DNA from: a virus
Virus record (IMG/VR): IMGVR_UViG_3300031236_000004
Coordinates: 22,622 to 86,621 of that record
Length of the DNA stretch: 64,000 bases
Direction: 5' to 3' (one strand)
The notes under the pieces were generated by a model. The model searched no databases. It worked only from the letters and a program-made list of their open reading frames with translations, and was not told the DNA's origin. The position numbers and the translations under genes were made by a program. Shown here one piece after another: positions 11,501-62,680 of this stretch. Each line of letters starts with the position of its first letter. Within the stretch, counting starts at the first letter, position 1.

Positions 11501-12162
11501 TGACGAAGCAGGTGGCGGCGACGTCGCTCGTCGCGTCGCTGCAGTCCCAGCTGGAGGCGGCGCAGGGCACCGCGGACACGTACGCGAGCCAGGGTTCGAC
11601 GGTCGCGCGGGCCGCGTACCTCGCGGCCACCCAGGACGCGGCCGACCTGCGGACCCAGATCCTGGGCGCGCAGGCGCAGCTGACGTCCATCAACGTGCAG
11701 ATCGCGGCCGCGACCACGACGCTCCAGGCGCAGACGGGAACCCCCGGCGTGCCGCGGGTGCTGCACAACCTCGACGACGCGGCCGCGCGCCCGCTCGTCC
11801 CGCTTCCAGCCACGCAGACGCTGTTCGACAGCTACGACGCCGCGACGGCCTACAACTGGCGGCCGATCTGCACGCTCGACGAGTACGTCATCTTCTACGA
11901 CGTCGCGGGCGTCGGCGCGATCCCCGCGTACGGCCACCCGCGCAGCGTCGGCGCGCGCTACTTCGACCGCATCCGCACGCTCACGCCGCCGCCGGCTCCG
12001 GTGAACGGCGTGCCCTTCGCGCCGCCGCCCGGGTCCGACGGCACGACGACGACCGCGGTACCGGGCCTCAACCAGGCATTTCCCCAGGTCGCCGCGGATT
12101 GGGACGCGCAGCTGCTCGCGTACAAGAACAACGTGCTCAACGTGAAGGCCCCCCGCACGTGA
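8590..12162 (+). CDS. Baseplate hub protein with lytic transglycosylase domain
   Basis: 1190 residues from GTG 8590. The first 330 or so residues resemble a tail-hub fold by general character, not by motif. At about 540-690 there is an SLT-type lysozyme-like domain: the catalytic Glu is Glu567 in WVNMESGG, followed by the DGSIGYFQLNN pattern that matches the G-Y/L-x-Q part of the family. Pro/Ala-rich linkers flank the domain. Residues after about 780 form another structural region with an Ala/Gln coiled stretch. Such hubs (compare T4 gp5 and gp27) puncture the envelope and cut peptidoglycan during infection. Overlaps both neighbours as GTGA. Confidence 0.75.
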   Translation: MTASPSRSTFASSAPHQAAFIVYINGLEVPAKSVSMRFGVWVTPEMQVEMVADPVLIRLGNEDRVQVAVFYLDDCAVDPSVQPEFRLFGEGEITGWGYRNTSGGRSIVFTVVNQIAIFTQLFVQFMTTLDDMVGHSAAIDSTTKISVPSSELVFPFALFQQGLLPTQGQKNSLITRPFDFLYNAVRWMMDSVVPADQRTVPAANFFTRWARLTNFHNRFAGCPSFDATSNASVFPVLQALQSTSAIDAVIKNLIPNVQNTGSIWDMLQLVFQTMLMEIAMIPGMPLVSVSLATGMVLQTDFSSHQLVLSDVFTSGPGIPPPVNTPAYTALGAGARGQWVPTVSDAARATQPLRMQNYFPKPQMLFSIPPSCNVIFPSQLKTIAYEENYATQPTRLYLNDEVLTQIVKAPQSGLTQSIENALTIAYPPLADQILQSALKQPIYHAKNFLLYPEEFFKGPVMDRRTAPPWLFFLKQNEVTQVTAPADNAAPPNPATPAQTGNQAPPRPGSVAPGVMVTQSNAGVAGAGPGGRRQYDPATEALRPKIQALIGTGYNAIPLDFALCWVNMESGGSIKSTDPSDGSIGYFQLNNAERPSLRSAAFPEGVTSAQVLALNSNLSDFNPATNTAITSGLAFIAQLRPRANALAKQFGLNWSEGDMWRLTKAFHAGIGFWGGTTSGYPGFFAIAKQALGGPAPDWSSLFNAVLPTLTPGGQLHRALMNATACGGVIATASGTMITKEDPRPFTAPSATPSPPAPSVATSAPPAPPAPADAAPVVDATTQAAVATFTEDVYHLYAKYEYFRERYARRSGSATVAWNPYVVPGFPGAIFDQRASRVDLMVYITGVQLSMSHAGQRSTTLSFLYGRQFQEMFEQLATEFAQNDATARGSGPQEPIRAISNIVQSFPQAETFYQQLFYGGQSLFGKAASFDFRAVVGLESTVPGGSPEPIFVDGPDSATQDGNIAAAQTISTLLTKQVAATSLVASLQSQLEAAQGTADTYASQGSTVARAAYLAATQDAADLRTQILGAQAQLTSINVQIAAATTTLQAQTGTPGVPRVLHNLDDAAARPLVPLPATQTLFDSYDAATAYNWRPICTLDEYVIFYDVAGVGAIPAYGHPRSVGARYFDRIRTLTPPPAPVNGVPFAPPPGSDGTTTTAVPGLNQAFPQVAADWDAQLLAYKNNVLNVKAPRT

Positions 12163-12917
12163 CGAGCCTGGCTGCCATCGCGAAGCTCGCAGCGACGAGC
12201 CGGCAGACGTCGGACCTCGAGGCGTGGCACGCCTGGAAGGCGAAGCCGACGGACGCCAACGCGAGCGCGCTGCTCGCGCAGGTCTCCCCGCTCATCCACC
12301 GCGAGGCCAACAAGTGGGCGGGCTCGCTCGCGAGGCCCCTGCTCGAGACGGAGGGCAAGCGCCTGGCGATGCAGGCGTTCCACAGCTACGACCCCGGCAA
12401 GGGCGCCGCCCTGGGGACGCACGTCGTCAACTCGCTGCAGCGGATGTCCCGGCTGTCGTACGCGAACCAGAACGTCGCCCGGCTGCCCGAGAACAAGATG
12501 CTGCTGTACCACGGCTTCAACGTGGCCCACTCGGAACTGTCCGACGCGCTGGGCCGCGCTCCGACGGCCGACGAACTGGCCGATCGGCTCGCGTGGCCCG
12601 TCGACAAGGTCGCGGAGTACCGCAAGTCGATCGGTCGGCGCGAGATGCTCGAGTCCGGCGGCCTGTTCGAGGGCAGCGACGCCGGGCTCTACGACGCGGA
12701 CAAGTCGGACCACGTCGTCGACTTCATCCACCACGACCTGCCGCCGCCGCAGAAGGCGATCTTCGAGCATTTGACAGGCTACGGAGGGGCTGACGTCCTG
12801 TCGAACCAGGAGATCCAGAAGAAGCTCGGCCTGACGCAGGGGCAGTACTCGCACCTCAAGGGCAAGCTCGTCGCGCGCGTCGAGGCGCTGACCGCCGGGG
12901 GCAGCCGTGGCGGGTAG
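12159..12917 (+). CDS. Sigma-70-like protein inside the tail operon
   Basis: 252 residues from GTG 12159. Residues about 20-110 resemble sigma region 2, but weakly. LGRAPTADELADRL at about 130-145 is the typical region 3 helix of FliA/WhiG-type sigma factors, and LSNQEIQKKLGLTQGQYSHL near 215-235 is a region 4 helix-turn-helix. It would recruit an RNA polymerase to phage promoters. It starts on the hub gene stop (GTGA) and its end overlaps the next gene by 11 bases, so it is made together with virion proteins. Whether it is packaged in the virion is unknown. Confidence 0.68.
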   Translation: MTSLAAIAKLAATSRQTSDLEAWHAWKAKPTDANASALLAQVSPLIHREANKWAGSLARPLLETEGKRLAMQAFHSYDPGKGAALGTHVVNSLQRMSRLSYANQNVARLPENKMLLYHGFNVAHSELSDALGRAPTADELADRLAWPVDKVAEYRKSIGRREMLESGGLFEGSDAGLYDADKSDHVVDFIHHDLPPPQKAIFEHLTGYGGADVLSNQEIQKKLGLTQGQYSHLKGKLVARVEALTAGGSRGG

Positions 12918-16438: not shown

Positions 16439-16444
16439 GCGCCC

Positions 16445-18874: not shown

Positions 18875-18892
18875 AATTCGGAGGCCCTCCAC

Positions 18893-19435: not shown

Positions 19436-19436
19436 C

Positions 19437-20000: not shown

Positions 20001-20012
20001 CGGAGAACGCAC

Positions 20013-24908: not shown

Positions 24909-27900
24909 CTAGAAGGCCGGGTTGCAGGCGACGTGCGGCGCGTCCTGCATGCCGGTCATGCCGACGCCGAGCAGGGCGTCGCGGCGCACGATGGCCTCCG
25001 TCACCTTGCCGAGGTAGGGCATGTCCGTGTACGTGGCCTGCAGCGTCCCGATGACGGTCGCGGCCCAGGCCGCCTCGCGGAAGTCCTCGAACGAGGTGAG
25101 CCTCGCCGCGTTGATCTCGGTGAGGTTGCACATCGCCCAGCCCGTCGATCTCGTCTCGTTCGCGTGTTCGAGAACCGGTTGGAGGTTGATCTCACCGCAG
25201 TTCGACACGAGCAGCCCACCCGTCCAGTACGTGTGCTCCTCAGCCTCGACGGTGATGTCGTAGACGGAATGGTCGCCCATGGTCGTCCGACACTCGATCT
25301 CGTGCGTGGACCGGCCGTCTTGGTTCGGATACAGGGCTCTGTCGATCGAGCGGGCCTCACGGACCTCCACGCGCTTTCCGTGAACCATCACGCGGTGGTT
25401 CTCCGTTCCGAAGAAAACCCCGGCTTGCGTGTGGTAACCGAAGACCGGCTTGACCCCGGTCAATACCTTGTGCGTGATCTTCGTCCACCTGACCCCGGAC
25501 CAGATCGTACTCCCGACGCCGACGTCATCGAAGGTGCGGATGCCGTCGGGCGTGAGCACCGTCGCCCACCCAGGCTGACAAGGGTTCGTGACGTGGTCGT
25601 AGTCGTTCACGAACAACACGCCGGGCTCCCCGTAGTGCCGCGTCATCCCGAAGATCCGCTTGAACTGCTTCTCCTTCGCCTCGTCGCGCTTGAGCACGAC
25701 CGAGTTGTTCGCGTTGGCCAGCCAGGGTTCCTTGTTGAACCAGCTGCGGTCTGCCTTGACGTTCATTAGCTCGCTGTCCTCAAGCGAGAACAGGCAGATC
25801 ATCGCGCTGTTATGAACGAGTAAGCCTTCGGCCACAAATTCGTGGTCACGTTCGATCGTAAGATCAAACGTCGCACTCGTTCCTACGCCTTGCTTGACTT
25901 CGATTACGGCGATCGGCATGAGCCCACGCCGATCTACGCCGCAGCGCTCTGCCGTGCCCGCTGTCATCTGGGCACTGACGGGTGACCATTTGGTGTTGTA
26001 GTTGACGTCTTCGCCGAGGATGAATTCGCGCGGGTACCCGTAATCGAACTGCGTTCCAGTACGGGCGGGCGCGCGCTTGACGGCGTGTGGAGCAACGCGC
26101 GCGTCAAAGGCTCTACGCGGGAGTTCTCCGACGAGAGTCAGGTGCCACAGCGCTTGCCAGGTTCCCTGCTCCGGCCGGTTGAGCTTCATTCGCGTGACGA
26201 TTCCCAAGCTGGCGTATACGGCTCGAACTTGCCGCACGAAGTCAGGGTAGACCGAGGATAAGAGGAGGAGCGGCCGATTGTCAGCCCCACCATCAGAATC
26301 CAACAGACCAGCCAAGTAGGCTCCACGAATAACCGGGAGTCCCTCCAGTACACACGCTGGCACGTGCAACGGGACCTTCGGCTGCTTGAAGTTCTCGCAG
26401 TAGAGCGCCAACTGTTTTCCAGCCGCTGAAACGCGGCGCGTCTCCTCGCCCTCGAGCTTCACGTCAGAACAAGACACGCCCATGCGCGCTAAAACCGCAC
26501 GGAGCCTCCTCACACGCTCAGGCGTTTCTTCGTCTTGTTCGTTCATGCTGAACGATACGCAGTTGGACCCTCCCTCTGTGGAGGTTCGATTCACGTGCAC
26601 GTAACCGTTTCCGTGGAGATACCCGAGAAACCACGCGATCTCCTCGTCGAGGTCTGGGACGTGGATGTCAACGCTCGTGTGGTCGTGAGGCGATCGCTCG
26701 TAGGACCACGGAGGCAACGATGTCGTGTGGCCCTCAACGACATGATCAACAAACACCATTCGGTCACCGGGCTTGAGCGAGCCCGCCGTCTTCCATTCGT
26801 ACGCCGCTGTGCTCGTCAGCACGGCCACGCGATGGTTGGCCGTGCAGCGAAACGGCCCCATCTGCGTAGTCACTTCAACAAGCTGTTGCGTGCCCTGTTC
26901 GATGACGTCAGTGACGCGCGACCATCCCGCAGCAGTGCGGGCCGCGTCTCCAGCGCGGACCGCTTCGATGGGGACGAGGCCCCGGGTCAAGTGGACAAGC
27001 GTTCCAGCGGGCAAGCAGCGCCGGATGCCGCCGGAGAGCACCGCGTCGGCCGCGTGACACATGACGCGGTGGGCCTCGATCGGTCGTAGCTGACGCCCCT
27101 GGGCGCCCGCGAGCACCTCGCGGACGCGCTCGAGCGCGAGCTTCAGCTTGAGGTGGCCCGGGGCGCGGCCGCCCGACGTCTTGAGCGGCGAACCCGCCCG
27201 GCGGATCAGGTGGTACGCGAACTCGACGTGGTAGCCGCCGATGAATCCGCTCACGAGCGCGTCGAGCGCGTTGGCCCAGCCCTCGATCGTGTCCTCGATG
27301 ACGTGGTGGACGACCTTCTTGGAGTCGACGTCGGCGATCGGAGGGAGCTTCTCGACGTGCTCGTATTGGACGGAGTACCCCACGCCGCAGCCGCACAGGA
27401 GCAGGTACATCGCCTCGGCGAACGCGCGCGGGCGGTCGACGAGCGTCGCGGAGCAGTTGTACTGCCGGCAGTGGACCGCCTCGACGGCGGGACCTCCGAA
27501 CTGCATGGACCGCATCGACGGCAGGACGCGCTTGTCGCGGACGAGGTCGAACGCCCGCCGGATCTCGGCGAGGCGCGCCTCCGGCAGGTGCGCGAAGCGG
27601 CGCAGGTGCATCGCCTCGACGCGCGCGACGGTTTCGTCGTAGACCTCGCGGCGCTGCTCGTCGGGGAGGTAGCGCGCGTACTTGCTGGCGTGGATGTAGT
27701 CCGACACGGCGAGCGAGTTCGGGCGCAGGCGCTCGCGGCGGGCCTCGGACCGCATCTGGCGGTAGATGATGTACGCCTTCGCGACGGCGAACTTCTTGGC
27801 GCGCATGAGCGCGACCTCGACCAGGTCCTGGATCTGCTCGACGTCCGCGACGTCCGCGGGGAGCGTCGCCGCGACGAACGAGACCACCCGGTGGACCTCC

Positions 27901-28046
27901 TCGGCGTCGGCCGCGCCCTCCACCTCGAGCCACGCCTTGCGCACCGCGCTCTCGATCTTCCCGACGTCGAACGGTTGTGTGGTCCTGCCGTCCCGCTTGC
28001 GAACCGTGGTGGGCTGAACGACGGGAATATCGAACGACGATTGCAT
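24909..28046 (-). CDS. nrdJ: Class II ribonucleotide reductase, N-terminal half (with inteins 1 and 2), ending at an in-frame TAG
   Basis: 1045 codons from ATG 28046 (AGGAG ten bases upstream). An ATP-cone begins the protein (RKRDGRTTQPFDVGKI, 17-32). CGCGVGYSV at 218-226 and the spliced NP-CGEINL motif mark a reductase of the monomeric, adenosylcobalamin-dependent type; the Cys of CGEI is the expected thiyl-radical residue and its Glu the expected base. Translation stops at TAG 24909-24911 in the middle of the catalytic domain, while the same frame continues with the missing part. A sequencing error, readthrough, a split enzyme or a dead gene are all possible. Confidence 0.85.
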   Translation of the reverse strand: MQSSFDIPVVQPTTVRKRDGRTTQPFDVGKIESAVRKAWLEVEGAADAEEVHRVVSFVAATLPADVADVEQIQDLVEVALMRAKKFAVAKAYIIYRQMRSEARRERLRPNSLAVSDYIHASKYARYLPDEQRREVYDETVARVEAMHLRRFAHLPEARLAEIRRAFDLVRDKRVLPSMRSMQFGGPAVEAVHCRQYNCSATLVDRPRAFAEAMYLLLCGCGVGYSVQYEHVEKLPPIADVDSKKVVHHVIEDTIEGWANALDALVSGFIGGYHVEFAYHLIRRAGSPLKTSGGRAPGHLKLKLALERVREVLAGAQGRQLRPIEAHRVMCHAADAVLSGGIRRCLPAGTLVHLTRGLVPIEAVRAGDAARTAAGWSRVTDVIEQGTQQLVEVTTQMGPFRCTANHRVAVLTSTAAYEWKTAGSLKPGDRMVFVDHVVEGHTTSLPPWSYERSPHDHTSVDIHVPDLDEEIAWFLGYLHGNGYVHVNRTSTEGGSNCVSFSMNEQDEETPERVRRLRAVLARMGVSCSDVKLEGEETRRVSAAGKQLALYCENFKQPKVPLHVPACVLEGLPVIRGAYLAGLLDSDGGADNRPLLLLSSVYPDFVRQVRAVYASLGIVTRMKLNRPEQGTWQALWHLTLVGELPRRAFDARVAPHAVKRAPARTGTQFDYGYPREFILGEDVNYNTKWSPVSAQMTAGTAERCGVDRRGLMPIAVIEVKQGVGTSATFDLTIERDHEFVAEGLLVHNSAMICLFSLEDSELMNVKADRSWFNKEPWLANANNSVVLKRDEAKEKQFKRIFGMTRHYGEPGVLFVNDYDHVTNPCQPGWATVLTPDGIRTFDDVGVGSTIWSGVRWTKITHKVLTGVKPVFGYHTQAGVFFGTENHRVMVHGKRVEVREARSIDRALYPNQDGRSTHEIECRTTMGDHSVYDITVEAEEHTYWTGGLLVSNCGEINLQPVLEHANETRSTGWAMCNLTEINAARLTSFEDFREAAWAATVIGTLQATYTDMPYLGKVTEAIVRRDALLGVGMTGMQDAPHVACNPAF
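25200..25580 (-). mobile_element. Mini-intein 2 in the reductase, at the catalytic cysteine
   Basis: 127 residues, Cys823 to Asn949, inserted between NP and CGEINL. It has the N-terminal splicing block (CQPGWATVLTPDG), block B (GTENHRVMV) and the C-terminal block (HTYWTGGLLVSN), but no endonuclease domain. The residue before the last Asn is Ser instead of the usual His. The +1 extein residue is the predicted active-site cysteine, so the enzyme cannot work until splicing is complete. Confidence 0.88.
25809..27017 (-). mobile_element. Intein 1 in the reductase, with LAGLIDADG endonuclease
   Basis: 403 residues, Cys344 to Asn746, inserted in GGIRR-SAMICLF, a conserved substrate-site segment of reductases. 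Start Cys, end His-Asn before Ser. Block B is RCTANHRVAVL. The endonuclease helices are WFLGYLHGNGYV and YLAGLLDSDGG, both with the acidic residue kept, so it may still be active. Lower GC than the extein. Confidence 0.9.
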
Positions 28047-39946: not shown

Positions 39947-40650
39947 GGCTTCCGCACCCACTGGAAGCGGGGGTCAGTGAGGTAGTCCTCGTCAGCGCAC
40001 TGCCGACACAACGAGAAGATCGCAACCCGTCGCACGTCCCCGGGCTCGAACTGGTCGAACGTCATCTTCGCGATGCCGGTCGCATCGTGCGCGGGGCGCA
40101 TCTCGTGCGGGTGCGTGCCCCACTGGGAGCACGTCATCACCGCCAGCCGCTCCAATTCGGCGATCACCTTGAGGTGATCTGGGTCCGTAGTACATGCGGA
40201 CCATCCACGTGCGAGACGTCCAATCGCTTCGCGCAGGACCTGGACGTGCGGGACGCGCTTCTCTTTGTTGACCTGCTCGCCCGTATACGTGCCGGACGCG
40301 ATCGCATCAAGCCCGGCCTGCGTGGGGCGCCACACCGCCGCAGGGGAGCCCGTCCGCGTGGGCCGCGTTTCCCCGGTATCGCGAGCCAGGCCGTCTCTCG
40401 CGAGGACGCCGAATCGGGCACTGAACGACGACGAGAACCGCCCGTAGCGAACCTGGGTCGCGTCAGGAGTTGCGCCATCCGGCTCGACGGCGACCAGGTG
40501 CTGCATGATCTCGAGGCGCGCCTGATCCTGCGTCTTGGCGGCAATCTTCGCTGCCGCCTTCGACGTGGCCGTCCCGTTGTGCGGCAGGGAGCCCAGTCCG
40601 CCGTCTTCGTCGTCCGTGTCGTCCTCATCACTGCCGTCGTCGTTGCTCAT
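39943..40650 (-). CDS. Putative winged-helix DNA-binding protein
   Basis: 235 residues from ATG 40650, overlapping the polymerase stop as ATGA. The acidic N-terminus (DDGSDEDDTDDEDG) is followed by a helical domain with GATPDATQVRYG and SFSARFGVLARDGLA that resembles a winged helix reading DNA. Two cysteines near the end (CRQC) may bind zinc. Role unknown; the location suggests a replication accessory or regulator. Confidence 0.55.
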   Translation of the reverse strand: MSNDDGSDEDDTDDEDGGLGSLPHNGTATSKAAAKIAAKTQDQARLEIMQHLVAVEPDGATPDATQVRYGRFSSSFSARFGVLARDGLARDTGETRPTRTGSPAAVWRPTQAGLDAIASGTYTGEQVNKEKRVPHVQVLREAIGRLARGWSACTTDPDHLKVIAELERLAVMTCSQWGTHPHEMRPAHDATGIAKMTFDQFEPGDVRRVAIFSLCRQCADEDYLTDPRFQWVRKP

Positions 40651-43600: not shown

Positions 43601-43688
43601 AGTCGGGGAGCTGGTTCTCGGGGAGGAGCGACGGGTCGTCGAGGGAGACGACCGGCAGCTTCACCTTGGGCTTCTTGGCGTCAGCCAT
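40647..43688 (-). CDS. polA: Family A DNA polymerase with N-terminal uracil-DNA glycosylase-like domain
   Basis: 1013 residues from ATG 43688. Residues about 30-220 look like a family 4 uracil-DNA glycosylase, with cysteines 35, 38, 116 and 136 placed like its iron-sulphur ligands. The exonuclease has D273/E275, D342 and D477. In the polymerase domain motif A is NVDWRGAEIR (Asp713), motif B is RTTVKRVVFGILYG, and motif C reads VHDSIV (903-908), with Ser instead of the usual Glu. It is the replicative polymerase. Similar UDG-Pol I fusions are known in SPO1-type phages. Confidence 0.93.
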   Translation of the reverse strand: MADAKKPKVKLPVVSLDDPSLLPENQLPDCKSGHCEGCALYKKRQMLGEGASGLVDIMMVSESPSSWSVNNKAMFYGRGGRIIRTAWRDLRELDKKNGGKLKMAHLKRWDTYAVQCQVEEGKDQSATANASTIQRCSSFLRAKIKNAQPKIILAFGATALKATGYKAERFMEARGRLLDVEIEGQIYKVLPTFSTKLMVAKTGLYNLFYADFVRAIRIAGGADEVGANTTLEELTRDYWIPKTVDEVGRLCDHIINHVVEGAPSAAHCAIAVDVETNTLNPHREDAKVLCVSFAWDTGRAGAVPLFHREAPWTPQELEQVVAHVRRVLECAKPKVFHNAKFDLKFLELRHGWRVNNVMWDSLLGEHLLREDMTGSYGLKTLGRSYFPMFGNYADKVQELAEQLTPEEAEKHAALANVKKGKPKKDVVGIEEGLVYTMTKTEVAREVFGTKREQKKSAMDAGYERVPIDTLDTYAAIDTDLTRRLLRHQFGRMKTEGFHANARSLMQTHCIPASRALGKMEFDGFRVDRPYIDKLEVDLTEIVKAKRKLLEAQWEGTKLPGQRATVSSEKGVAFNPNSTEHVAEVLFDVGVFEGSGPRVKRHTFAEKNLKSGKRKTDKKTLKAIAEQTRCLFARTLLEYRAAHKALTGFVKDIKDLSAYDGFLHTSFHLHGTSTGRTSSSNVNMQNTPKKLAGVNIKKIFIPDDPDEEVVFNVDWRGAEIRVFTAYAPDEELIKALNDGLDVHSWFTQEIFGIPYAEVEAKKENTDYILPEFGLSMNALRTTVKRVVFGILYGAMAKKIAETAGVSEERAQQIIDKLFERFPSLKNYMDEVVSQIHAKGFVETLFGRRRRFPLQGVNGFFRGQAERRGKNMKIQSTSSDIVIAQLIEIFEHIHELGGRLCITVHDSIVGVIKKKHLHKAKAFFDYYCVQRVREKYAWLPVDFAYDIAVGPSYGETIALDDYLKKNPGLAMTQEQELMELLDQDALNDFVVDEDGKQADSMFDTKEDEEEEAQAS

Positions 43689-43740
43689 GGCGCGATGTTT
43701 GTACCATAAACATACCTGGCATCGTGTCCTCCTGACTGAC

Positions 43741-49448: not shown

Positions 49449-50534
49449 ATGCACACGAAAGCTCCGCGTACCTCGGCCACGTACTACGCCGACATCGCCC
49501 GTACGCTGCTGGTCGACGACCCGGCGGAAGAGCGGAAGCTGCTGCGGCGCTGGCAGGCGCGGGGCGACGTGGCCGCCCGCGACGCCATCGTCAAGACGCA
49601 CCTCCGCTTCGTCGTGAAGATGGCGCACAAGCGCACCAAGGACCCAGAGGCGGTCAAGGACTACATCGCGGCGGGCAACCTGGGCCTCCTCAAGGCGGCC
49701 GACAAGTTCGACTGCGAGCGCAAGCCGTACATCCGCTTCCTGACCTACGCGGGCTGGTGGGTCTACGAGGAGATGTCCAATCAAGACTACACCATGGCCT
49801 CGCTCGTCCACGTGCCGGCGCACCGGCACAAGACGCAGCGGCGCCAGGCGCGCGAGTTCCGCGCCGCGCTGCAGGAGTACGGGCCCGACAAGGTCGCCGA
49901 GCACGCCGGCGACGCCGTCGAGCGGCTGGTCGAGCTGCGCGCCCAGGCCAAGAAGGCCCAGGGCCCCGCGCTGCGGCGCGTCGAGAAGCAGATCCGCTTC
50001 TACGAGGCGATCCAGGAGCCCGGCCTTCCCGAGGGCGTCGTCACCACGATCGACGCGGTGCGCAACGCGCCCGACCTCCCCGAGACCGAGCCCGCCGTCA
50101 GCTACGACGCGGAGCGGCTGCGCGGCACGGTGCGCCAGGCCATCGCGCGGCTGCCGCTGCGCGAGCAGACCGTCCTGAACCAGTGCTTCGGGGTCAAGGA
50201 CGAGCCGCGCAACCTCGTCCAGATCGCGGCGATGATGGGCGTGTGCTCAGAGCAGGTGCGCCTGCTCAAGATCCGGGGCATGCGCCTGCTCCACCGCGAA
50301 CTGGTGCTCGGCGCGGTGTCGAGCCTCCCGCTCCTCGAGCGGACGGTGATCGAGCGGAGCTTCGGGCCCGAGGGCGAGCCGCAGACCGCCGAGACCGTGG
50401 CCGGCGACATGAAGTTGACCGTCGCGTGCGTGCGGCGCATCCAGCAGGCGAGCATGCGACTCCTGCAGTCGGAGCTGCACTCGCGCGTAGGGATGTCGAT
50501 CGAGCCGCTGGCGGCGATGACCGCGGCGACCTAG
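49449..50534 (+). CDS. Sigma-70-family factor with two region 4-like domains
   Basis: 361 residues from ATG 49449. Region 2 (about 30-115) is clear: HLRFVVKMAHKR, YIAAGNLGLLKAADKFD and FLTYAGWWVYEEM. The C-terminus has two successive helix-turn-helix units of the region 4 kind, LPLREQTVLNQCFG...IAAMMGVCSEQVRLL and LPLLERTVIERSFG...VAGDMKLTVACVRRI, roughly 237-290 and 295-345, each about 55 residues. They look like a tandem duplication. It would direct an RNA polymerase to phage promoters; the second copy may read an extra element or bind a partner. Confidence 0.82.
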   Translation: MHTKAPRTSATYYADIARTLLVDDPAEERKLLRRWQARGDVAARDAIVKTHLRFVVKMAHKRTKDPEAVKDYIAAGNLGLLKAADKFDCERKPYIRFLTYAGWWVYEEMSNQDYTMASLVHVPAHRHKTQRRQAREFRAALQEYGPDKVAEHAGDAVERLVELRAQAKKAQGPALRRVEKQIRFYEAIQEPGLPEGVVTTIDAVRNAPDLPETEPAVSYDAERLRGTVRQAIARLPLREQTVLNQCFGVKDEPRNLVQIAAMMGVCSEQVRLLKIRGMRLLHRELVLGAVSSLPLLERTVIERSFGPEGEPQTAETVAGDMKLTVACVRRIQQASMRLLQSELHSRVGMSIEPLAAMTAAT

Positions 50535-53702: not shown

Positions 53703-54076
53703 CGGAACTCCTCCGGCGGGTCATAGGACTCGCCGTCTAGCAGGGTACGCTCGGGCGATTGAAACTTGCCCTCGGTGGTCTTCTCGAGGTGCTTGGACGC
53801 GCGGAAGATGTCGGACATGTCGACGGGCTCGGCGCCGCCCTCGATCGCGGTGAGCGCGGGGGGCGGGCGCGCCGCCGGCGGCTGATCGACCGCGGGGGCC
53901 GGCGGCGGCGGCGCCGCGACTGGCGGCTCGTCCCCGGGCTGGACCTCGACGCGCACGGTCACGTCGCCCTTGGGGCACTTGACGTCCGCGTCGGCGGCGG
54001 CGATGCCCTGTCGGGCGAGGTCCTGTCGGATGAGCCGAACGACGTCGGCGGGTTCGTACGTGACGACGATCTTCAC
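53699..54076 (-). CDS. Unknown protein with Pro-rich linker
   Basis: 125 residues from GTG 54076, coupled by GTGA to the SNF2 helicase gene and by ATGA to the nuclease gene. A compact N-terminal part (about 1-55) is followed by a Pro/Ala-rich linker and an acidic tail with PVDMSDIFRASKHLE. It probably links or regulates the two neighbouring enzymes, but that is inference. Confidence 0.6.
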   Translation of the reverse strand: MKIVVTYEPADVVRLIRQDLARQGIAAADADVKCPKGDVTVRVEVQPGDEPPVAAPPPPAPAVDQPPAARPPPALTAIEGGAEPVDMSDIFRASKHLEKTTEGKFQSPERTLLDGESYDPPEEFR

Positions 54077-56058
54077 GGGACTCCTCGCTGCAGCGAGCGC
54101 GCCTTGATGACGGGCCTCGCCACCGTCTTGGGGTAGATGCACCCCGGCCTGAACGGCTCGATGCCGTTCTTGAGGCAGTTGACGCTGTGCGGGCACAGCG
54201 CGCACTCGATCTTGTTGGCCAGCAGCACGTCCACGTCCACCTTGTGGTCCAGCAGGTGCGCTACCGCGGCTTCCAGCGTGCGCCTGCCGATCATGCGATA
54301 CACCGTGACCGGGTTATCCTGCCCGAGCCGGTAGTTCCGGTCCAGGCTCTGCGAGTACTGCGTCAGCGAATACGGCAGCGACCCGTATATGGCGTACGTC
54401 GCGGCGACCAGGTTGATGCCGACGCCTGACGCGACCTGCCCGACGTACACCCGCGTGTGCGGGTCGTCGTTGAACTGGTCGATCTGCTCCATCGGCCTGC
54501 GCGTGTCGCCGTCGACGCGCACGTGTCCGATGCCTGCGCGGGTCAACCGCCCGACGATCGAGTCCATCTCCGGGTGGAACACGCACCACACGATGACCTT
54601 GGCGCCCGGGACCACGACGATGTTGTCGACCAGCTCCATGATCGCGTCGTGCTTGGGGTTGTCGTCGGAGAAGATCGTCTCCGTCGGCCAGGGGGACTGG
54701 ATCACCTTGCAGCGGCGGGTGTGCGGCTTGACGTCGTCGACCACGCAGTCGCGGACGTGCTCGCAGGGCTGGCCGCCGCGCGCGGTGTCGCAGAAGTTCG
54801 GATCGACGACGTTGTTGATGACGAAGCCGGACGTGATCTGCAGAAGCTTGAGCAGGGCGGCGGCGCGGTGCGGCAGCGCGATCTCAGGCGGCAGGTCCAG
54901 CAGGGCCGGCAAGAGCCCGGGGGCGCGCTCCGGGTCGTCGCGGATGCCGAGCGCGAAGGCCTGCAGCTCGTCCGGGCTGATGCCCATCGTCTCGACGACC
55001 TGGTTGTAGAGGGCGGTCTGGGAGGCCGAGAGCGCGTAGTCGACGTCGACGAAGGTCCGCTTCGGCAGGTCCAGGCACTGCTCCTTGGTGCGGCGGAGGC
55101 TCAGGAACGTGGTCCGGGCGTTGATCACGTCGAGGTTCTTGAACCCCGTGACGACGTGGGACCGCGGTGACGGCCGCTTCGTGAAGAGCCGCTCGTACCT
55201 GAAGTAGGGCTCCGGCATGAAGCAGTCACCCAGGATCTTGTAGGGGGCGTAGACGTTGCGCGGGTCGCCCTCGGTCGGGGAGCCCGTCATCAGCACCCGC
55301 CGCTGGGCCTTCTGGGCGATCTCCCAGACGCCCTTGGTCCGGTCGGACGACCAGGCGTTGACGTTGTGGCTCTCGTCGCAGACCAGCAGCGCGTAGGGGA
55401 GCCGCTCGACCAGCGAATCCACTATCCTTTTGGCAGTGTCGTACGTGACCAAGACGACGTCGGCCCGCTCCGCGACCGCGCGGTCGAGGGCCGCGTACTT
55501 CTGCGCGCGCGAGCCCATCAGGGCGACCCACGAGAGCTGCCCGCCCGAGTGCTTGTCGATCTCCCGCCCCCAGTTCTCGACGGTGATGCGCGGCCCCAGG
55601 ACGAGCGCGCAGCCGTGAGCGCCGACGCGCCGCAGCAAGCGGATGAGGTCGATGGCGATCTTCGACTTGCCCGTGCCGGGATCGAAGTAGAGCGCGGACC
55701 TCGAGTAGTAGAAGGTGTGGCAGAGCCCCTCGACCTGGTGGTCGCGCGGCCGGGTGACGTACTCGAAGCCGGCCGGCAGTCGTCGGTCGGTCAGCGCGGC
55801 GCGGTCGCGCGCGAGGGCCTCGACGTGCTGCCGAGCGACGTCGGACAGCGACACGTCCAACTCGCCCGAGAGCACGTCGAAGTCGGACAGCACCTTGTCG
55901 GAGGCCGGCAGGAACGCCGGGTACATCCACAGGGCCCGCTCGGGATCCCACGTCGCGCCGAAGATCCGCTGGTGGTCGAGCGTCTGACCCGGAATGAGGA
56001 ACACCGGGGTGCCGTTTCCCGCTCGGCCTACGCGCACTTCCATCCGGTATCGGGCCAT
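54073..56058 (-). CDS. SNF2-family helicase/translocase
   Basis: 661 residues from ATG 56058 (AAAGG nine bases before it). Walker A DPGTGKS is at about 126-132, the DESH box in LVCDESHN follows, then TGSPT and the motif VI region SLDRNYRLGQDNPV. Two cysteine clusters (FCDTARGGQPCEHVRDC with RRC downstream, and ECALCPHSVNC at the end) may bind zinc or iron-sulphur. SNF2 proteins move along DNA and strip other proteins. Divergent from the portal gene with 55 bases between. Confidence 0.85.
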   Translation of the reverse strand: MARYRMEVRVGRAGNGTPVFLIPGQTLDHQRIFGATWDPERALWMYPAFLPASDKVLSDFDVLSGELDVSLSDVARQHVEALARDRAALTDRRLPAGFEYVTRPRDHQVEGLCHTFYYSRSALYFDPGTGKSKIAIDLIRLLRRVGAHGCALVLGPRITVENWGREIDKHSGGQLSWVALMGSRAQKYAALDRAVAERADVVLVTYDTAKRIVDSLVERLPYALLVCDESHNVNAWSSDRTKGVWEIAQKAQRRVLMTGSPTEGDPRNVYAPYKILGDCFMPEPYFRYERLFTKRPSPRSHVVTGFKNLDVINARTTFLSLRRTKEQCLDLPKRTFVDVDYALSASQTALYNQVVETMGISPDELQAFALGIRDDPERAPGLLPALLDLPPEIALPHRAAALLKLLQITSGFVINNVVDPNFCDTARGGQPCEHVRDCVVDDVKPHTRRCKVIQSPWPTETIFSDDNPKHDAIMELVDNIVVVPGAKVIVWCVFHPEMDSIVGRLTRAGIGHVRVDGDTRRPMEQIDQFNDDPHTRVYVGQVASGVGINLVAATYAIYGSLPYSLTQYSQSLDRNYRLGQDNPVTVYRMIGRRTLEAAVAHLLDHKVDVDVLLANKIECALCPHSVNCLKNGIEPFRPGCIYPKTVARPVIKARSLQRGVP

Positions 56059-56113
56059 GTGACCATGCCTTTCTATCACGACGCGTCACGACATGTTTGC
56101 GAGGTAAACCCCG

Positions 56114-57919
56114 ATGCCTGATGGAATGCTCGACCTCGACGTCGCCAGCCTGTCGTCGCACAACACCGCCTCGCAGGGCAGCCCGCTCTTCGACTTCCTC
56201 ACCGCGTTCGCGCCCAGGAAGCTGAAGGACCTCTTCCGCCTGTGCGAGTACCTCTACTTCAACAGCGCCCAGATCTACGCGGCGCTGCAGAAGTTCTGCA
56301 CGTACCCCGTCACGAGCATCGTCTACGAGACGCAGAACGAGTCGCTCAAGCAGTTCTACAAGGACCTGCACGAGAAGACGCTCAAGACGCTGCGGATCCT
56401 CATCCGCGCGGCCGTCGACAAGTTCGTCTACGGCAATGGCTTCTTCTCGATGTACGCGCCGTTCGTGCGCTTCCTGAAGTGCCCGCGCTGCGCCGCGCTC
56501 ACCAACATCCACCAGGTGACCTACCGCTTCAAGCTCAAGAAGTTGACGTTCAACTACGAGTGCGGCGGCTGCAGCGCGCGCGTCGACGCCGGCGAGAAGG
56601 ACGTCATCGACCGCAAGATCACGCGCAAGGACCGGATCGCGGTCATCCGCTGGGACCCGAAGCTGATGGACATCGACTACAACCCCATCACCGGGCACAG
56701 CGAGTACTTCTACACGATCCCCAAGGAGCTGAAGGAGCGCTGCGCCAAGGGCAACAAGCACCTCGTCGACACGATGCCGATGGAGTTCCTCAAGGCGATC
56801 CGCGACGACAAGATCTTCAAGTTCGCCGAGGGTCAGATCCTCCACATGCGCATGGACGCGCCCGCGGGCATCGAGGCCCAGTGGGGCTTCCCGCCGCTCG
56901 CGTCGACCATCAAGTTGTTCTTCTACGCGGCGGTCCTGCGCAAGGCGAACGAGGCCATCGCACTGGACTACGTCGTCCCGCTCCGCATCATCTCGCCCAA
57001 GCAGTCGTCAGCCAACGCGGATCCGATGACCACCATCAACCTGTCGAAGTGGTCGGCGCAGATGAAGGAGAGCGTCAAGAAGTGGCGCCGCGACCCGCTC
57101 CACATCATGTGGTCGCCGGTCCCGGCCGAGGTCACGCACCTCGGAGGGCAGGCGCGTGCCCTGATGACGCTCGGCGAGGTGCAGGCGGCCGAGGACAACA
57201 TCATCGCGGCCCTGGGCCTGCCCAAGGAGTTCATCTACGGCGGCTTCTCGGCGATGGGCTCGGGCATCCAGCTCCGCGTCCTCGAGAACCAGCTCGTCCA
57301 CCAGACCGGCGACCTCAACGACCTGCTGCAGTGGATCACGGACAAGTCGGCCAAGCAGCTCGGTCGCGGGACCATCCAGGTCTCGCTCGCGCCGTTCCGC
57401 TTCATCGACGACGTCCAGCAGAAGGCGCTGCTGCTCCAGCTCAACGTCGCCGACCCGACGTCCGGGCCGTGGCTCTCCCAGCGCACGCTCGGCGAGGCGT
57501 TCGACGTCGACCCGGCCGAGGAGCGCAAGTGGCGCAAGCAGGAGGCCCTCGAGCAGGCCCGCGTGCAGCAGGAGCTGCAGATCGAGCTGACCAAGCGCCA
57601 GAACTCGCTCGCCTCGCAGGCCCGCGCGCAGGCGCAGCAGGGTCAGCAGGGCCTGTCCTACGACCAGCAGGCGGTGATCGGCCAGGCCGACCAGGTCGTG
57701 CAGCAGATGCAGGGCCTCGACCCCGGGTCCCGCCAGTCCCAGATGCACGCGCTGCAGTCCGAGGACTTCGTCATGTGGGCCGTGGTCTCCGCGCGCCTGA
57801 AGCTGCAGGAGACGCAGATGAACCACGAGGCGATCGCGCAGATGCGCCAGGGCGGGGGCGCGGGCGGCGACCCGAGCGGCGGCGGCGGCGGCGAGGGCGC
57901 GCCCCCGATGGCCGCCTGA
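56114..57919 (+). CDS. Portal protein
   Basis: 601 residues from ATG 56114 with a GAGG ribosome binding site. The early KDLFRLCEYLYFNSAQIYAAL helix, WDPKLMDIDY, the conserved LGLPKEFIYGG and the basic/Gln-rich helical C-terminus fit a phage portal ring subunit. Between about 120 and 160 there is an insert with two CxxC pairs (CPRC and CGGC), a zinc ribbon not usual in portals. The portal is where DNA enters the capsid and where terminase docks. First gene of the plus-strand block that includes the RNA polymerase. Confidence 0.82.
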   Translation: MPDGMLDLDVASLSSHNTASQGSPLFDFLTAFAPRKLKDLFRLCEYLYFNSAQIYAALQKFCTYPVTSIVYETQNESLKQFYKDLHEKTLKTLRILIRAAVDKFVYGNGFFSMYAPFVRFLKCPRCAALTNIHQVTYRFKLKKLTFNYECGGCSARVDAGEKDVIDRKITRKDRIAVIRWDPKLMDIDYNPITGHSEYFYTIPKELKERCAKGNKHLVDTMPMEFLKAIRDDKIFKFAEGQILHMRMDAPAGIEAQWGFPPLASTIKLFFYAAVLRKANEAIALDYVVPLRIISPKQSSANADPMTTINLSKWSAQMKESVKKWRRDPLHIMWSPVPAEVTHLGGQARALMTLGEVQAAEDNIIAALGLPKEFIYGGFSAMGSGIQLRVLENQLVHQTGDLNDLLQWITDKSAKQLGRGTIQVSLAPFRFIDDVQQKALLLQLNVADPTSGPWLSQRTLGEAFDVDPAEERKWRKQEALEQARVQQELQIELTKRQNSLASQARAQAQQGQQGLSYDQQAVIGQADQVVQQMQGLDPGSRQSQMHALQSEDFVMWAVVSARLKLQETQMNHEAIAQMRQGGGAGGDPSGGGGGEGAPPMAA

Positions 57920-57931
57920 TAGGATGCCCGG

Positions 57932-58309
57932 ATGGATGAGCAAGACGACTTCGTCGGAGCCCTCGCCCGCGCCCAGCGCCTGTCGGGCGACGGCGGCACC
58001 ATGTTCGGGCCCGACGGCCCGGGCCGCGTGGCCTTCGAGGGCGACCCGCGCAAGGTGGGGCCCGACCTGGAGCACGACGCCCACGTCGGGGTCTTCACGA
58101 TGCCGACCGACCGGGGCGAGTACGAGGACGTCCTCAACGAGGTCATCCGCGGCGAGGCGGTCCTCCGCTACGAGGAGAAGACCTTCACCAAGGACGGCGA
58201 CTTCATCGTGGCGATCTGCTGGATGACCCCGCGCGTGCGGGCGGCGCCGGCGCCCGGGCAGGACGCGGGCGACGCGGAGGCGCCCGTGCTGCCGCGAAGG
58301 ATCCCGTAG
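57932..58309 (+). CDS. Unknown small protein
   Basis: 125 residues from ATG 57932. Mixed acidic sequence with a beta-rich middle, and an Ala/Pro-rich tail. No family recognised. Twelve bases after the portal and 24 before the polymerase, so probably co-expressed with both. Confidence 0.58.
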   Translation: MDEQDDFVGALARAQRLSGDGGTMFGPDGPGRVAFEGDPRKVGPDLEHDAHVGVFTMPTDRGEYEDVLNEVIRGEAVLRYEEKTFTKDGDFIVAICWMTPRVRAAPAPGQDAGDAEAPVLPRRIP

Positions 58310-58333
58310 CGCTCTCTTTTACCAAGGAAAGCC

Positions 58334-61300
58334 ATGAATCTCCGGCCGGTCATCGAAGACGCAGCGACTCGCCGCGAGGCCATCCGCCGAAAGGCGACGG
58401 AGGCCCTCGAGCAGGTCTTCCCGCTCAAGGCGGGCAAGCACGCGCTCGAACTGACCAACGTCCGCGTCGAGCCGAGGGAGTTCTCGTCTCGCGAGCAGAA
58501 GCTGGCCGTCCTCGAGGGTCGGACGCTCTCCGAGCGAGTGCGCGGCGACCTCGTAGCCAAGGACGCGGCGGGCCAGCAGGTCAGCGCAGCGAAGGACTTC
58601 ACGCTGATGCAGCTGCCGTACTTCACCCCGCGGCACACGTTCATCGTCGACGGCACGGAGTACTCGGTCGCCAACCAGCTGCGTACCAAGCCCGGCGCCT
58701 ACGTCCGCCGGCGTGGCAACGAGGAGCTGGAGGCGACGTTCAACCTCGCCAAGGGCGCCAACTTCCGCGTGTCGATGGACGCCGAAAAGGGCCTGCTGTA
58801 CATGCAGCCTTCGCACGGGACGTCCAAGATCCCGCTGCACCCGGTGCTCCGCGCGCTCGGCGTGCCCCAGCAGGACATCGCGGCTGCGTGGGGTCAGGAG
58901 CTGGCGGGCCTCAACCGGGACGCGTGGAAGTCGCCAGACAAGCACGTCGACAAGCTGTACTCGACGCAGGTCCACCCCGCGAAGCAGACGGCGGCGACGA
59001 CGGACGAGAAGGCGCGCGTGCTGCGCGAGTACTTCGACAACACCGTCATGGACCCGGAGGTGTGCGTCAAGACGCTCGGCTACCCGTTCGACAAGGCGTC
59101 GCCGGCGGCGGTGCTCGCGGCCTCGAAGAAGCTCCTCGACGTCCACCGCGCGGCCGCCGACGTGGACGACCGAGACTCGCTCGCGTTCAAGACGCTCCAC
59201 TCCGTCGACGACTTCGTCAAGGAGCGCATCCAGCTCGGGGCGCGCGCCATGAAGGCCAAGCTCGGGTGGAAGCTGGACGCGGCGCGCGGCGACGTCAGGA
59301 AGGCGATGCCGGCGGGCCCGTTCACGGGGGCGGTGCGGGGCCTGCTCACCGGGACGTCGCTGTCGTCCGTCCCGATGCAGATCAACCCGATGGAGCTGCT
59401 GGACCAGGCATCGAAGGTCACGATGCTCGGCGAGGGCGCGATCCCGTCGGAGCGGGCCATCCCGCTCGAGGCGCGCGACGTCCACCCGACGCACATGGGG
59501 ATCCTCGATCCGGCCCGGTCGCCCGAGTCGTTCTCAATTGGCGTCGACCTGCGAGCGGCCATCGGGGCCCGCCGCGACGATCGCGGCAACCTCTACGCGC
59601 CCGTGCGCGACGTCAAGACCGGCAGGTCGACGCACCTCGCGGCCGCCGACATGGAGAAGTCGGTCATCGCGTTCCCGGGCGAGAAGGTGGAAGCCGGGCG
59701 GCTCGTCGACGCGATGAACCGAGGCAAGGTCGAGCGCGTCAACGCGGCCGACGTGACGCACCAGATCGAGCACGTCCACGACCTCTACGGGCCGACGTCG
59801 AACCTGCTGCCGCTCATCTACGGCATCCAGGGCAACCGCGTGCTGATGGCGTCAAAGCACCAGGGTCAGGCGCTGCCGCTCGTCCACCGCGAGGCGCCGC
59901 TGGTGCAGGTCGAGTCGTGGAAGCCCGGCGTGTCGGTCGAGCGAGAGATGGTCAAGCAGATCGTCCCGACCGCGCGCGAGGCGGGCGTGGTGACGAAGAT
60001 CGACGAGGACTTCGTGCACCTCGGGCCATCCGAGAAGGCCGCGGCCGCCCCCTCGAAGCTCCACTACGATCAGGACTTCCCCCTCGCCGCCAAGACCGCG
60101 CTCCACAACACGCTGACGGTCAAGGTCGGCGATCGCGTCGAGGCGGGTCAGCCGCTCGCGGAGAGCAACTTCACCAGGGACGGCGCGTTGGCGCTCGGGA
60201 CGAACCTCCGCGTGGGCTACGTGAGCTACCGCGGGCTCAACGCCAACGACGGCATCGTCGTCTCGCAGGGCGCGGCCGACAAGCTGATCAGCGAGCACAT
60301 GTACCAGCACGGCGTCTCGCGCGACGGCGGCGCCGAGATCGGTCGCGAGAAGCACCGGGCCTACTTCGGCGGCAAGTACGCCGCGTCGCAGTACGCCAAC
60401 CTCGACGAGGACGGCGTGGTCAAGCCGGGCGTCGTTCTCCGGCACGGCGACCCGATCGCGGTCGGCGTCCGCGAGAACAAGGCCACCGGCGACGCGGCGC
60501 TGCTCGGCAAGCTCTCCAAGTCGCTCGTGAAGCCCTACGAGGAGGTGGTCGAGCGCTGGGAGCACGACAACCCGGGGACCGTGGTCGACGTGGCGAAGAC
60601 CGGGGACCGCGTCGCGGCGTCGGTCAGGACGACGGAGTCACTGAACATCGGCGACAAGCTGACCGGCAGGTACGGGAACAAGGGGGTCATCGCCAAGATC
60701 GTCCCCGACGACCAGATGATCCGCGACGAGCACGGCCGCCCGCTCGACCTGCTGTTCACGTCGGCTGGCGTCGTCTCGCGCATCAACCCGGGACAGATCG
60801 TCGAGAGCGCGCTGGGCAAGGTCGCGGAGAAGACGGGCAAGCCGATCATCCTCCCCCAGTACGTGCCCGGGCGAGACAACGTCGAGTACGCCAAGAAGCT
60901 GCTCGCTGAGCACGGCCTGTCGGACAAGGAGACCGTGCACGACCCGGTCACGCGGCGGGACATCCCGAACGTGATGGTCGGCAAGAGCTACATCCTGAAG
61001 CTGATGAAGACGGCGGACTCGAACTGGAGCGCGCACGGGAGCGAGCGCTACGACTTCAACCAGCAGCCAGGACGCGGCGGCGACGAGGGCGCGAAGGGGA
61101 TCGGGCGCATGGAGTTCGACGGGCTGGTGTCGCACAACGCCCGCAACATCCTGCGCGAGGCTGCGTCGATCAAGAGCCAGCGGAACGACGAGTTCTGGCG
61201 AGCGGTGCAGCTCGGGCTCCCGACGCCCGCGCCGAAGACGCCGTTCGCGTACGACAAGCTGCTGTCGATGCTCACCGGCGCGGGCGTCAAGGTCGACAAG

Positions 61301-62680
61301 AGCGGCTCGCGGCTGGCCCTCGGGCCGCTGACCGACGCGGACGTGGCGAAGATGTCGTCCGGCGCGCTCCAGGACCCGAGCAAGCTCATCCGGGCCAAGG
61401 ACCTGCGCCCGGAGACCGGCGGCCTGTTCGACCCCGGCGTCACCGGCGGCATGTCCGGCACGAAGTGGTCGCACGTCGACCTGCACGAGCCGATCGTCAA
61501 CCCGGTGTTCGAGGAGCCGGTCCGCCGCCTGCTCGGGCTGACGCAGAAGGAGTTCAGCGAGCGCGTCGGCCGCGGCGGCGAGTGGTTCAAGAAGGCGCTC
61601 GACGAGATCGACGTCGACGACAAACTCGCCGAGCTGCGGGTGGAGTCGCGCCGCGCGCGCGGACCAGCACTCGACGGCGTCGTCAAGCAGGTGAAGTACC
61701 TCGAGGCGCTGCGCGACCGGAAGCTCAAGCCGAGCGACGCGTACGTCCTCTCGAAGGTCCCCGTCACGCCCCCGGTCATCCGGCCGATCCTGCCGCTCAA
61801 GGACGGGCGCCTCCAGGTCGGCGACGCGAACCTGCTCTACAAGGACGCCTTCCTCGCCAGCGACCAGCTGCGCGAGGCCTCGAAGTCGCTGCCGGAGTCG
61901 GAGCTGGCCGACCCCCGCCGCCACCTCTACGACGCCGTCGGCGCGCTGTTCGGCGTCGGCGAGCCCGTGAGCCCGACCGCCGAGCGGCGAGGCACCAAGG
62001 GCTACCTCGCGGCCATCGCCGGGACGCGGCCGGGCTCGGGATTCTTCCAGGGGAAGATCCTCAAGCGCCAGCAGGACGTCAGCGGCCGCGCGACCGCGGC
62101 GCCAGACCCGACGCTCTCATTGGACGAGGTGGGCGTCCCGGAGGAGATGCTGTTCAAGATGTACGGGAAGTTCGTCATCGGACGCCTCGTACGCCGCGGG
62201 TACAACGCGACGGACGCGCAGAAGCTAGTCGACGATCGCGCGCCCATCGCACGCGATGAACTGATCAACGAATCCCGCGAGCGTCCCGTCTTGCTCAACC
62301 GTGCTCCCAGCCTCCACAAATTCAACATCATTGCCGCATACCCGAAGATGGTCGACGGCAAGACGCTCAAGACAAATCCGTTCATGGAGAAGGGGAGCAA
62401 CCTGGACTACGACGGAGACGCCCTGCAGGTGCACGCACCGGTCACTCCGGGCGGCATCGAGGACGCGAAGAAGATGACGCTGTCGCACCTCATCTTCGCG
62501 GACAAGCGACCCGGCGTGCTGAACGTGGCGCCGGAGCAGGACAGCGTGCTCGGGCTGCACCGCGCCACGCGAGCGCCGTCGAACGCCAAGACGCGCCACT
62601 TCGGATCGCAGGAGGACGCGCTGGCGGCCTACCACCGCGGAGACATCGCGCTGAACGACCCGATCGAGATCAGGCGCTGA
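58334..62680 (+). CDS. RNA polymerase beta fused to the N-terminal half of beta-prime
   Basis: 1448 residues from ATG 58334 with AAGGAAAG upstream. Beta marks: PYFTPRHTFIVDGTEY, HPTHMGILDPARSPESF (385-401), ALALGTNLRVGYVSYRGLN, GDKLTGRYGNKGVIAKIVP (about 773-791) and YDFNQQPGRGG near 900. After a linker at about 955-997 come beta-prime marks: GGLFDPGVTGG, KDGRLQVGDANLLY, GKILKRQQDVSGRA, RPVLLNRAPSLHKF and the catalytic loop NLDYDGD with Asp1358, 1360 and 1362. The protein ends about 80 residues later, so bridge helix and trigger loop are missing and must be in another gene. Nothing in the window supplies them. Confidence 0.92.
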   Translation: MNLRPVIEDAATRREAIRRKATEALEQVFPLKAGKHALELTNVRVEPREFSSREQKLAVLEGRTLSERVRGDLVAKDAAGQQVSAAKDFTLMQLPYFTPRHTFIVDGTEYSVANQLRTKPGAYVRRRGNEELEATFNLAKGANFRVSMDAEKGLLYMQPSHGTSKIPLHPVLRALGVPQQDIAAAWGQELAGLNRDAWKSPDKHVDKLYSTQVHPAKQTAATTDEKARVLREYFDNTVMDPEVCVKTLGYPFDKASPAAVLAASKKLLDVHRAAADVDDRDSLAFKTLHSVDDFVKERIQLGARAMKAKLGWKLDAARGDVRKAMPAGPFTGAVRGLLTGTSLSSVPMQINPMELLDQASKVTMLGEGAIPSERAIPLEARDVHPTHMGILDPARSPESFSIGVDLRAAIGARRDDRGNLYAPVRDVKTGRSTHLAAADMEKSVIAFPGEKVEAGRLVDAMNRGKVERVNAADVTHQIEHVHDLYGPTSNLLPLIYGIQGNRVLMASKHQGQALPLVHREAPLVQVESWKPGVSVEREMVKQIVPTAREAGVVTKIDEDFVHLGPSEKAAAAPSKLHYDQDFPLAAKTALHNTLTVKVGDRVEAGQPLAESNFTRDGALALGTNLRVGYVSYRGLNANDGIVVSQGAADKLISEHMYQHGVSRDGGAEIGREKHRAYFGGKYAASQYANLDEDGVVKPGVVLRHGDPIAVGVRENKATGDAALLGKLSKSLVKPYEEVVERWEHDNPGTVVDVAKTGDRVAASVRTTESLNIGDKLTGRYGNKGVIAKIVPDDQMIRDEHGRPLDLLFTSAGVVSRINPGQIVESALGKVAEKTGKPIILPQYVPGRDNVEYAKKLLAEHGLSDKETVHDPVTRRDIPNVMVGKSYILKLMKTADSNWSAHGSERYDFNQQPGRGGDEGAKGIGRMEFDGLVSHNARNILREAASIKSQRNDEFWRAVQLGLPTPAPKTPFAYDKLLSMLTGAGVKVDKSGSRLALGPLTDADVAKMSSGALQDPSKLIRAKDLRPETGGLFDPGVTGGMSGTKWSHVDLHEPIVNPVFEEPVRRLLGLTQKEFSERVGRGGEWFKKALDEIDVDDKLAELRVESRRARGPALDGVVKQVKYLEALRDRKLKPSDAYVLSKVPVTPPVIRPILPLKDGRLQVGDANLLYKDAFLASDQLREASKSLPESELADPRRHLYDAVGALFGVGEPVSPTAERRGTKGYLAAIAGTRPGSGFFQGKILKRQQDVSGRATAAPDPTLSLDEVGVPEEMLFKMYGKFVIGRLVRRGYNATDAQKLVDDRAPIARDELINESRERPVLLNRAPSLHKFNIIAAYPKMVDGKTLKTNPFMEKGSNLDYDGDALQVHAPVTPGGIEDAKKMTLSHLIFADKRPGVLNVAPEQDSVLGLHRATRAPSNAKTRHFGSQEDALAAYHRGDIALNDPIEIRR

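Follow-up and report, generated by a model that had tools for sequence, protein, structure and literature searches.

Jumbo phages of the phiKZ/AR9 type encode multisubunit RNA polymerases (RNAPs) that consist of four to five polypeptides without an alpha subunit, and the virion form of the enzyme is packaged and serves early genes (PMC7598289, PMC13282480). These phages have no sigma homologue detectable by sequence, phiKZ gp68 and AR9 gp226 being sigma-like only in structure or role. Reviews describe RNAP-bearing jumbo phages as devoid of a sigma homologue and sigma-bearing ones as devoid of an RNAP (PMC7598289, PMC7824862, PMC13282480), in agreement with the preliminary description of the DNA analysed here, according to which phage multisubunit RNAPs generally do without typical sigma factors. 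The sigma-encoding jumbo and T4-like phages that take over the host RNAP are likewise reported to lack an RNAP of their own (PMC7824862). The mReC Caudovirales (Weinheimer & Aylward 2020, PMC7481178) are tailed phages known from metagenomes, and their beta and beta-prime subunits can be aligned to the cellular ones; their description mentions neither a sigma factor nor a split subunit, and their capsids are reported to match PF07068 (PMC7481178). In the crAss-like and YonO-type RNAPs, beta- and beta-prime-like parts are joined in one highly divergent chain (PMC7481178).

The stretch of DNA under study (hereafter the window) comprises 64,000 nucleotides at the end of a viral fragment of 86,621 bases and belongs to a single syntenic lineage that includes the cultured Salmonella phage Arash (OQ632216; PMC10585845) and the Vibrio phages D69, D148 and D181. 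These four phages share the fused polymerase subunit described below (35–36% identity over 98–100% of its length), the C-terminal part of beta-prime (beta'C), both sigma factors and the gene order. The order portal, small gene, fused RNAP gene, beta'C is kept; one sigma gene precedes the RNAP gene by about 9–10 kb, and the tail operon contains the other. The window clade differs from Arash and D69 in its promoter-like motif and in an altered replication-region sigma.

The lineage resembles phiKZ/AR9-type phages in having a multisubunit RNAP without alpha, but it has two core chains, one of them a fusion of beta with N-terminal beta-prime (beta-beta'N), and two sigma-70 proteins recognisable by sequence; a type defined by at least four core polypeptides and no sigma homologue does not include it. 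As in the mReC phages, its beta and beta-prime align to cellular subunits, and the Arash terminase matches the mReC-type PF03237; the Arash capsid does not match PF07068 and gives only a weak match to PF05065. Joined beta and beta-prime parts are shared with the crAss-like and YonO-type enzymes, whereas the chain described here combines a cellular-type beta with part of beta-prime. The lineage also shares sigma-70-family proteins with host-using phages, but the motif that binds the host core, lost in those of the lineage, is retained by most of the host-using phage sigmas examined. The lineage has both an RNAP and sigma factors, against the reviews published up to 2026, and promoter finding by a viral RNAP could therefore be studied through familiar sigma biology. 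In the literature, which was incompletely covered, the Arash table was all we found on this combination, and no paper was found that treats it as a system. The study of Arash names the components and briefly suggests a role in early transcription, but describes neither a sigma–RNAP system nor the fusion, and neither the two classes of promoter-like motif nor the lack of the second sigma in the virion (PMC10585845).

The fused polymerase subunit and its genomic setting

The RNAP gene and the features around it are as follows.

54073–56079, minus strand: SNF2-family helicase adjoining the portal/RNAP operon, matching Arash gp198
56114–57919, plus strand: portal protein, separated from the RNAP gene by one small gene, in the same order as in Arash and D69
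57932–58309, plus strand: small gene between the portal and RNAP genes; a small gene lies there in Arash and D69 too
58334–62680, plus strand: RNAP subunit of 1448 amino acids in which beta is joined to the N-terminal third of beta-prime (Pfam and NCBIfam, beta and beta-prime chains of the PDB, end point shared with relatives)
61610–61717, plus strand: stretch of the beta-prime clamp resembled by the sigma insert (RNAP residues 1093–1128)
61823–61948, plus strand: beta-prime clamp helices, docking site of sigma region 2; helices kept, residues equivalent to R275, E295 and Q300 of E. coli changed
62405–62419, plus strand: catalytic motif DYDGD, which corresponds to the D-D-D triad of NADFDGD (sequence and alignment)
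62682–62690, plus strand: CCTATAATT, promoter-like, right after the RNAP stop codon

The polymerase gene and the two sigma-like genes were all found where the preliminary description had placed them, with Pfam, PHROG and family-profile scores far above chance. What had been called a polymerase subunit gene encodes a whole beta followed by N-terminal beta-prime rather than one ordinary subunit. It matches RNA_pol_Rpb2_6 (3e-39), Rpb1_2 (2e-18) and Rpb1_1 (3e-7) in Pfam, and rpoB TIGR02013 (4e-83) and rpoC TIGR02386 (6e-56) in NCBIfam; residues 1 to about 990 correspond to beta and the remainder to approximately residues 180–550 of bacterial beta-prime. The conserved beta domains, including Rpb2_6, thus occur together with the beta-prime catalytic motif, as in two-barrel RNAPs, and of the 21 relatives compared, 20 share the DYDGD form of this D-x-D-G-D motif with the window and one has DFDGD. 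The alignment with beta and beta-prime chains of the PDB takes in both places where sigma binds in bacteria, the flap of beta and the clamp helices of beta-prime. The chain stops about 90 residues past DYDGD, and we interpret this break in beta-prime as a true split and not an error because relatives at 36–86% identity end at the same point.

The fused gene is nevertheless incomplete as a polymerase without a second gene, that of beta'C, which had been missed earlier. No beta'C gene occurs within the contig, as the contig stops at window base 64000, ahead of its expected place. In all 14 longer relatives beta'C is a separate gene a little further downstream; among relatives its distance from the fused gene is 0.6–5 kb. 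The protein of the close relative L017 has about 590 residues and aligns to the remaining part of beta-prime with recognisable bridge-helix and trigger-loop stretches, so that these elements are seen in relatives, outside the window itself. An alpha subunit (PF01193) was absent from 11 records, including 2 complete genomes, in a search whose control was positive in 13 of 14 cases; known phage RNAPs also lack alpha (PMC13282480), and its absence therefore does not argue against a phage RNAP. No bacterial genome carrying this RNAP was found among bacterial genome contigs, which leaves the window phage without a hint of its host, and the window holds no tRNA.

Several genes of the lineage carry additional domains. 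L014 and L022 have a GNAT acetyltransferase-like domain (1e-8 and 5e-7) in frame within the beta part of the RNAP, at about residue 573, where L025 and L028 also have an insertion. In-frame insertions of about 350–440 amino acids are present at residue 777 of the RNAP in L015 and L017, at about 1040 in L027 and at about 393–441 in L012 and L020, with a LAGLIDADG match in L015, intein and LAGLIDADG matches in L027 and no assignment for the L012 insertion. In the window, the ribonucleotide reductase gene (24909–28046, minus strand) contains an intein with a LAGLIDADG endonuclease, and a single chain encoded at 40647–43688 (minus strand) combines DNA polymerase A, an exonuclease and a uracil-DNA-glycosylase domain.

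The two sigma-like genes

12159–12917, plus strand: tail-operon sigma factor, orthologue of Arash gp10 (profile, family profile, fold, orthology)
49449–50534, plus strand (open frame from 49437): replication-region sigma with region 2, an RNAP-like insert and two region-4 copies
49905–50018, plus strand: RNAP-like insert, residues 157–194 (alignment; predicted helical hairpin)
50139–50291, plus strand: sigma region 4, first copy (Pfam)
50298–50489, plus strand: sigma region 4, tandem second copy, residues 288–351

The earlier call of two sigma-like genes stands in that both products belong to the sigma-70 family; the insert and the doubled region 4 of 49449–50534 had been missed. The latter gene sits between minus-strand replication genes and reads on the plus strand, the translation of its minus strand yielding no sigma. 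Matches to Sigma70_r2 (6e-9) and to two copies of Sigma70_r4 (2e-13), together with a predicted model of modest confidence (pLDDT 70) that is nearest to sigma-S and matches sigma folds, identify the replication-region protein, by profile and predicted fold, as a sigma-70-family member, RpoS-like and the more canonical of the two. It is present in 14 of 20 records. Of the other six, the contigs G014 and G015 reach only a little way upstream past the RNAP gene and stop short of its place, and the divergent relatives G011, G012, G013 and G016 gave no match in contigs that cover it.

The insert aligns without gaps to residues 1093–1128 of the phage's own RNAP with a score of 87; the best of 2000 shuffles reached 49, and no other protein of the contig scored above 38. 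The corresponding insert of L015 scores 97 against the RNAP, with about half of the residues identical. The window shares the insert and the second region 4 with its closest relatives, L015 and L017; the other relatives have neither. The insert occupies the place of region 3 in bacterial sigmas, and as a guess it may pack on the clamp in place of that region. The presence of an RNAP-like insert in the sigma would be an unusual case of a machine part copied into its partner.

The tail-operon protein alone scores more weakly (Sigma70_r3, 2e-6; PHROG sigma, 1e-8), and its regions 2.1–2.2 are weak or degenerate. Its family profile matches SigA chains over regions 2.3 to 4 (9e-12), and the best Foldseek matches of its predicted model, also of modest confidence (pLDDT 64), are nearly all sigma chains, over the full length. 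By profile and fold, then, this member of the structural (tail) operon is also assigned to the sigma-70 family. It was detected in 15 of 20 records, that is, in every record covering its locus, the remaining five contigs stopping before it as judged from its spacing from the RNAP gene in G008. Among 50,697 phage records, strong matches were obtained only for Arash, D69, D148 and D181 (next best E value 2e-4). A profile–profile comparison of the two sigma families was not significant (probability 1.4%), and we do not present them as recent copies of each other for this reason.

The putative core–sigma interface and promoter-like motifs

In E. coli numbering, sigma is contacted by R275 and E295 of the beta-prime clamp helices, and the clamp by Q406 and E407 of sigma-70 region 2.2. 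The equivalent of R275 is never arginine in the phage RNAPs (lost in 23/23) and that of E295 is lost in 22/23, with the helices themselves kept. On the sigma side, the bacterial D-L-I-Q-E-G-N motif has become D-x-I-A-A-G-N in 9 of 10 replication sigmas and holds N-A at these positions in D69, and the tail sigmas are likewise devoid of the host region 2.2 motif; Salmonella RpoS and four host-using phage sigmas keep EE, QE or QV there. Since contact residues are lost from the clamp and from the sigmas alike, both sides have moved off the host pattern. These changes fit a private phage interface, which would provide an orthogonal transcription system; those on the clamp are also compatible with an enzyme that works without sigma and has diverged at its surface.

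Two classes of promoter-like sequences, which are to be distinguished from mapped start sites, were detected in Arash and D69. Arash has 31 occurrences of GGTATAAG, where 3.4 would be expected. TGnTATAAG, mostly located 30–60 bases ahead of a start codon, is found on the early/replication strand rather than the late strand (18 versus 0 in Arash and 24 versus 1 in D69; 42 versus 1 in total), and NTAAAATA lies ahead of late and structural genes (10 versus 4 and 23 versus 5; in total 33 on the late strand versus 9 on the early strand). The strand split of the two classes across both genomes is highly significant (Fisher p = 3e-14). TGnTATAAG has a G where the host -10 box has a T, and a search for near-consensus host sigma-70 promoters, allowing one mismatch, gave 3 in Arash and 1 in D69. 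We do not claim a -35 box upstream of TGnTATAAG because two weak columns were seen in Arash and none in D69. Judged from these sequences, the pairing of two promoter-like classes with two sigmas is suggestive.

Neither motif of Arash and D69 was found in the window clade, where CCTATAAT and TGTTTAT...AAACA occur instead. CCTATAAT lies at the matching place after the RNAP gene in L004, L006, L009, L012, L014, L021 and L022 (eight phages with the window) and is present in 8 copies in the relative G006, against 0.1 expected. The inverted motif TGTTTAT...AAACA, a possible operator or promoter, is found near gene starts and mostly on the replication strand; it occurs at window position 43712 (minus strand), just upstream of the DNA polymerase start, and at several sites in G006.

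Virion proteins and the proposed roles of the two sigma factors

Another laboratory has analysed Arash virions by mass spectrometry; the RNAP and the tail sigma of this relative are each about 36% identical to those of the window. The fused subunit gp206 was the most detected virion protein (3516 spectra, 128 unique peptides), accompanied by beta'C gp216 (1210 spectra, 40 unique peptides) and the tail sigma gp10 (467 spectra, 24 unique peptides, full coverage), whereas enzymes of the primase or ligase type gave about two unique peptides and the replication sigma gp196 is not listed in the virion table (PMC10585845). From this table we computed 2.31, 2.00 and 2.00 spectra per residue for gp206, gp216 and gp10, spectral counts being a crude measure of stoichiometry, and 6.6–10.3 unique peptides per 100 amino acids for the RNAP chains and gp10 versus 0.2–0.6 for primase, ligase and similar enzymes. 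The near-equal counts of gp206, gp216 and gp10 lead us to infer a packaged holoenzyme. The authors of the Arash study considered that the virion RNAP may serve early transcription or be carried over (PMC10585845). By orthology with Arash, where it was shown by others, the RNAP is probably also present in the mature particle of the window phage.

We consider a virion-packaged sigma–RNAP holoenzyme, complemented by a second sigma made during infection, to be the best reading of these data, with a probability of about 0.6. The phage would make its own sigma-dependent RNAP with a core of two chains, beta-beta'N and beta'C, and no alpha, the fusion probably standing in for the alpha dimer that links beta and beta-prime. 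The tail sigma would be packaged with this core, as the particle content reported for the Arash orthologues suggests, and the holoenzyme would enter the cell ready for use and start phage transcription; the second sigma, which was not found in the Arash particle, would be made in the cell and redirect this core to promoters of the other class. We advance only tentatively, at somewhat short of an even chance, the fuller proposal that the lineage packages a complete holoenzyme and later switches sigma on the same core, that the interface has left that of the host, and that in the window sub-lineage a hairpin copied from the clamp takes the place of region 3 in the second sigma. If the preferred reading is right, the enzyme of the lineage works like a bacterial holoenzyme. 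With Arash and the Vibrio phages in culture, the presence of a whole bacterial-type holoenzyme in a virus particle is directly testable.

The preliminary description suggested that both sigmas work with the phage enzyme. This is well supported for the tail sigma, by its co-occurrence with the RNAP and by the Arash virion data, and indirectly for the replication sigma, for which the changed core motif and polymerase surface, synteny and promoter-like motifs have to be set against its absence from the Arash table and the failure to find it in G011, G012, G013 and G016. Phage sigmas redirect the host RNAP in T4 and SPO1, and the roles could be split in this lineage, the tail sigma serving the packaged phage RNAP and the replication sigma redirecting the host enzyme. 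Such a split would suit the listing of gp10 as the only one of the two sigmas in the Arash virion, the more canonical, RpoS-like character of the replication sigma, and the four divergent relatives in which it was not found and which keep the RNAP and, where covered, the tail sigma. We regard it as unlikely, as region 2.2 of the replication sigma reads AA or NA rather than QE or EE in 10/10 family members, its insert resembles the phage's own RNAP, and TGnTATAAG carries a G in place of the T of the host -10 box.

That both sigmas redirect the host RNAP, with the phage RNAP initiating sigma-free as described for phiKZ-type virion enzymes, appears improbable. Phage sigmas described to date are considered to work with the host core (PMC7598289, PMC7824862) and the phage RNAP is devoid of the usual sigma-contact residues, but the clamp helices and flap are retained, near-consensus host promoters are almost absent from Arash and D69, and the tail sigma is confined to phages with the RNAP fusion and accompanies the RNAP chains in the Arash particle at near-equal spectra. 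The position of the tail-operon gene among structural genes, the detection of its orthologue in virions alongside many tail proteins, the degenerate region 2.2 and the weak single-sequence score could also indicate a tail or baseplate protein that kept the sigma fold and lost the function. This interpretation is very improbable in our view, given that homology covers regions 2.3 to 4, that the protein tracks the RNAP and not tail genes in general, and that its 2.00 spectra per residue compare with 2.00–2.31 for the RNAP chains.

The Arash particle also contains gp217 (L070:29262–30680), an SNF2-family helicase encoded directly after beta'C, with 1148 virion spectra and 38 unique peptides. It was considered as a conserved partner of the RNAP and left out of the model because no separate orthologue was seen in D69 or G006. 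In addition, an inverted-repeat element with the core CTTATATAAG, flanked by GTTACAACGTTT, occurs five times in the Arash genome, at 26.7, 66.4, 100.2, 138.5 and 173.3 kb (L087, L106, L107, L070 and L108).
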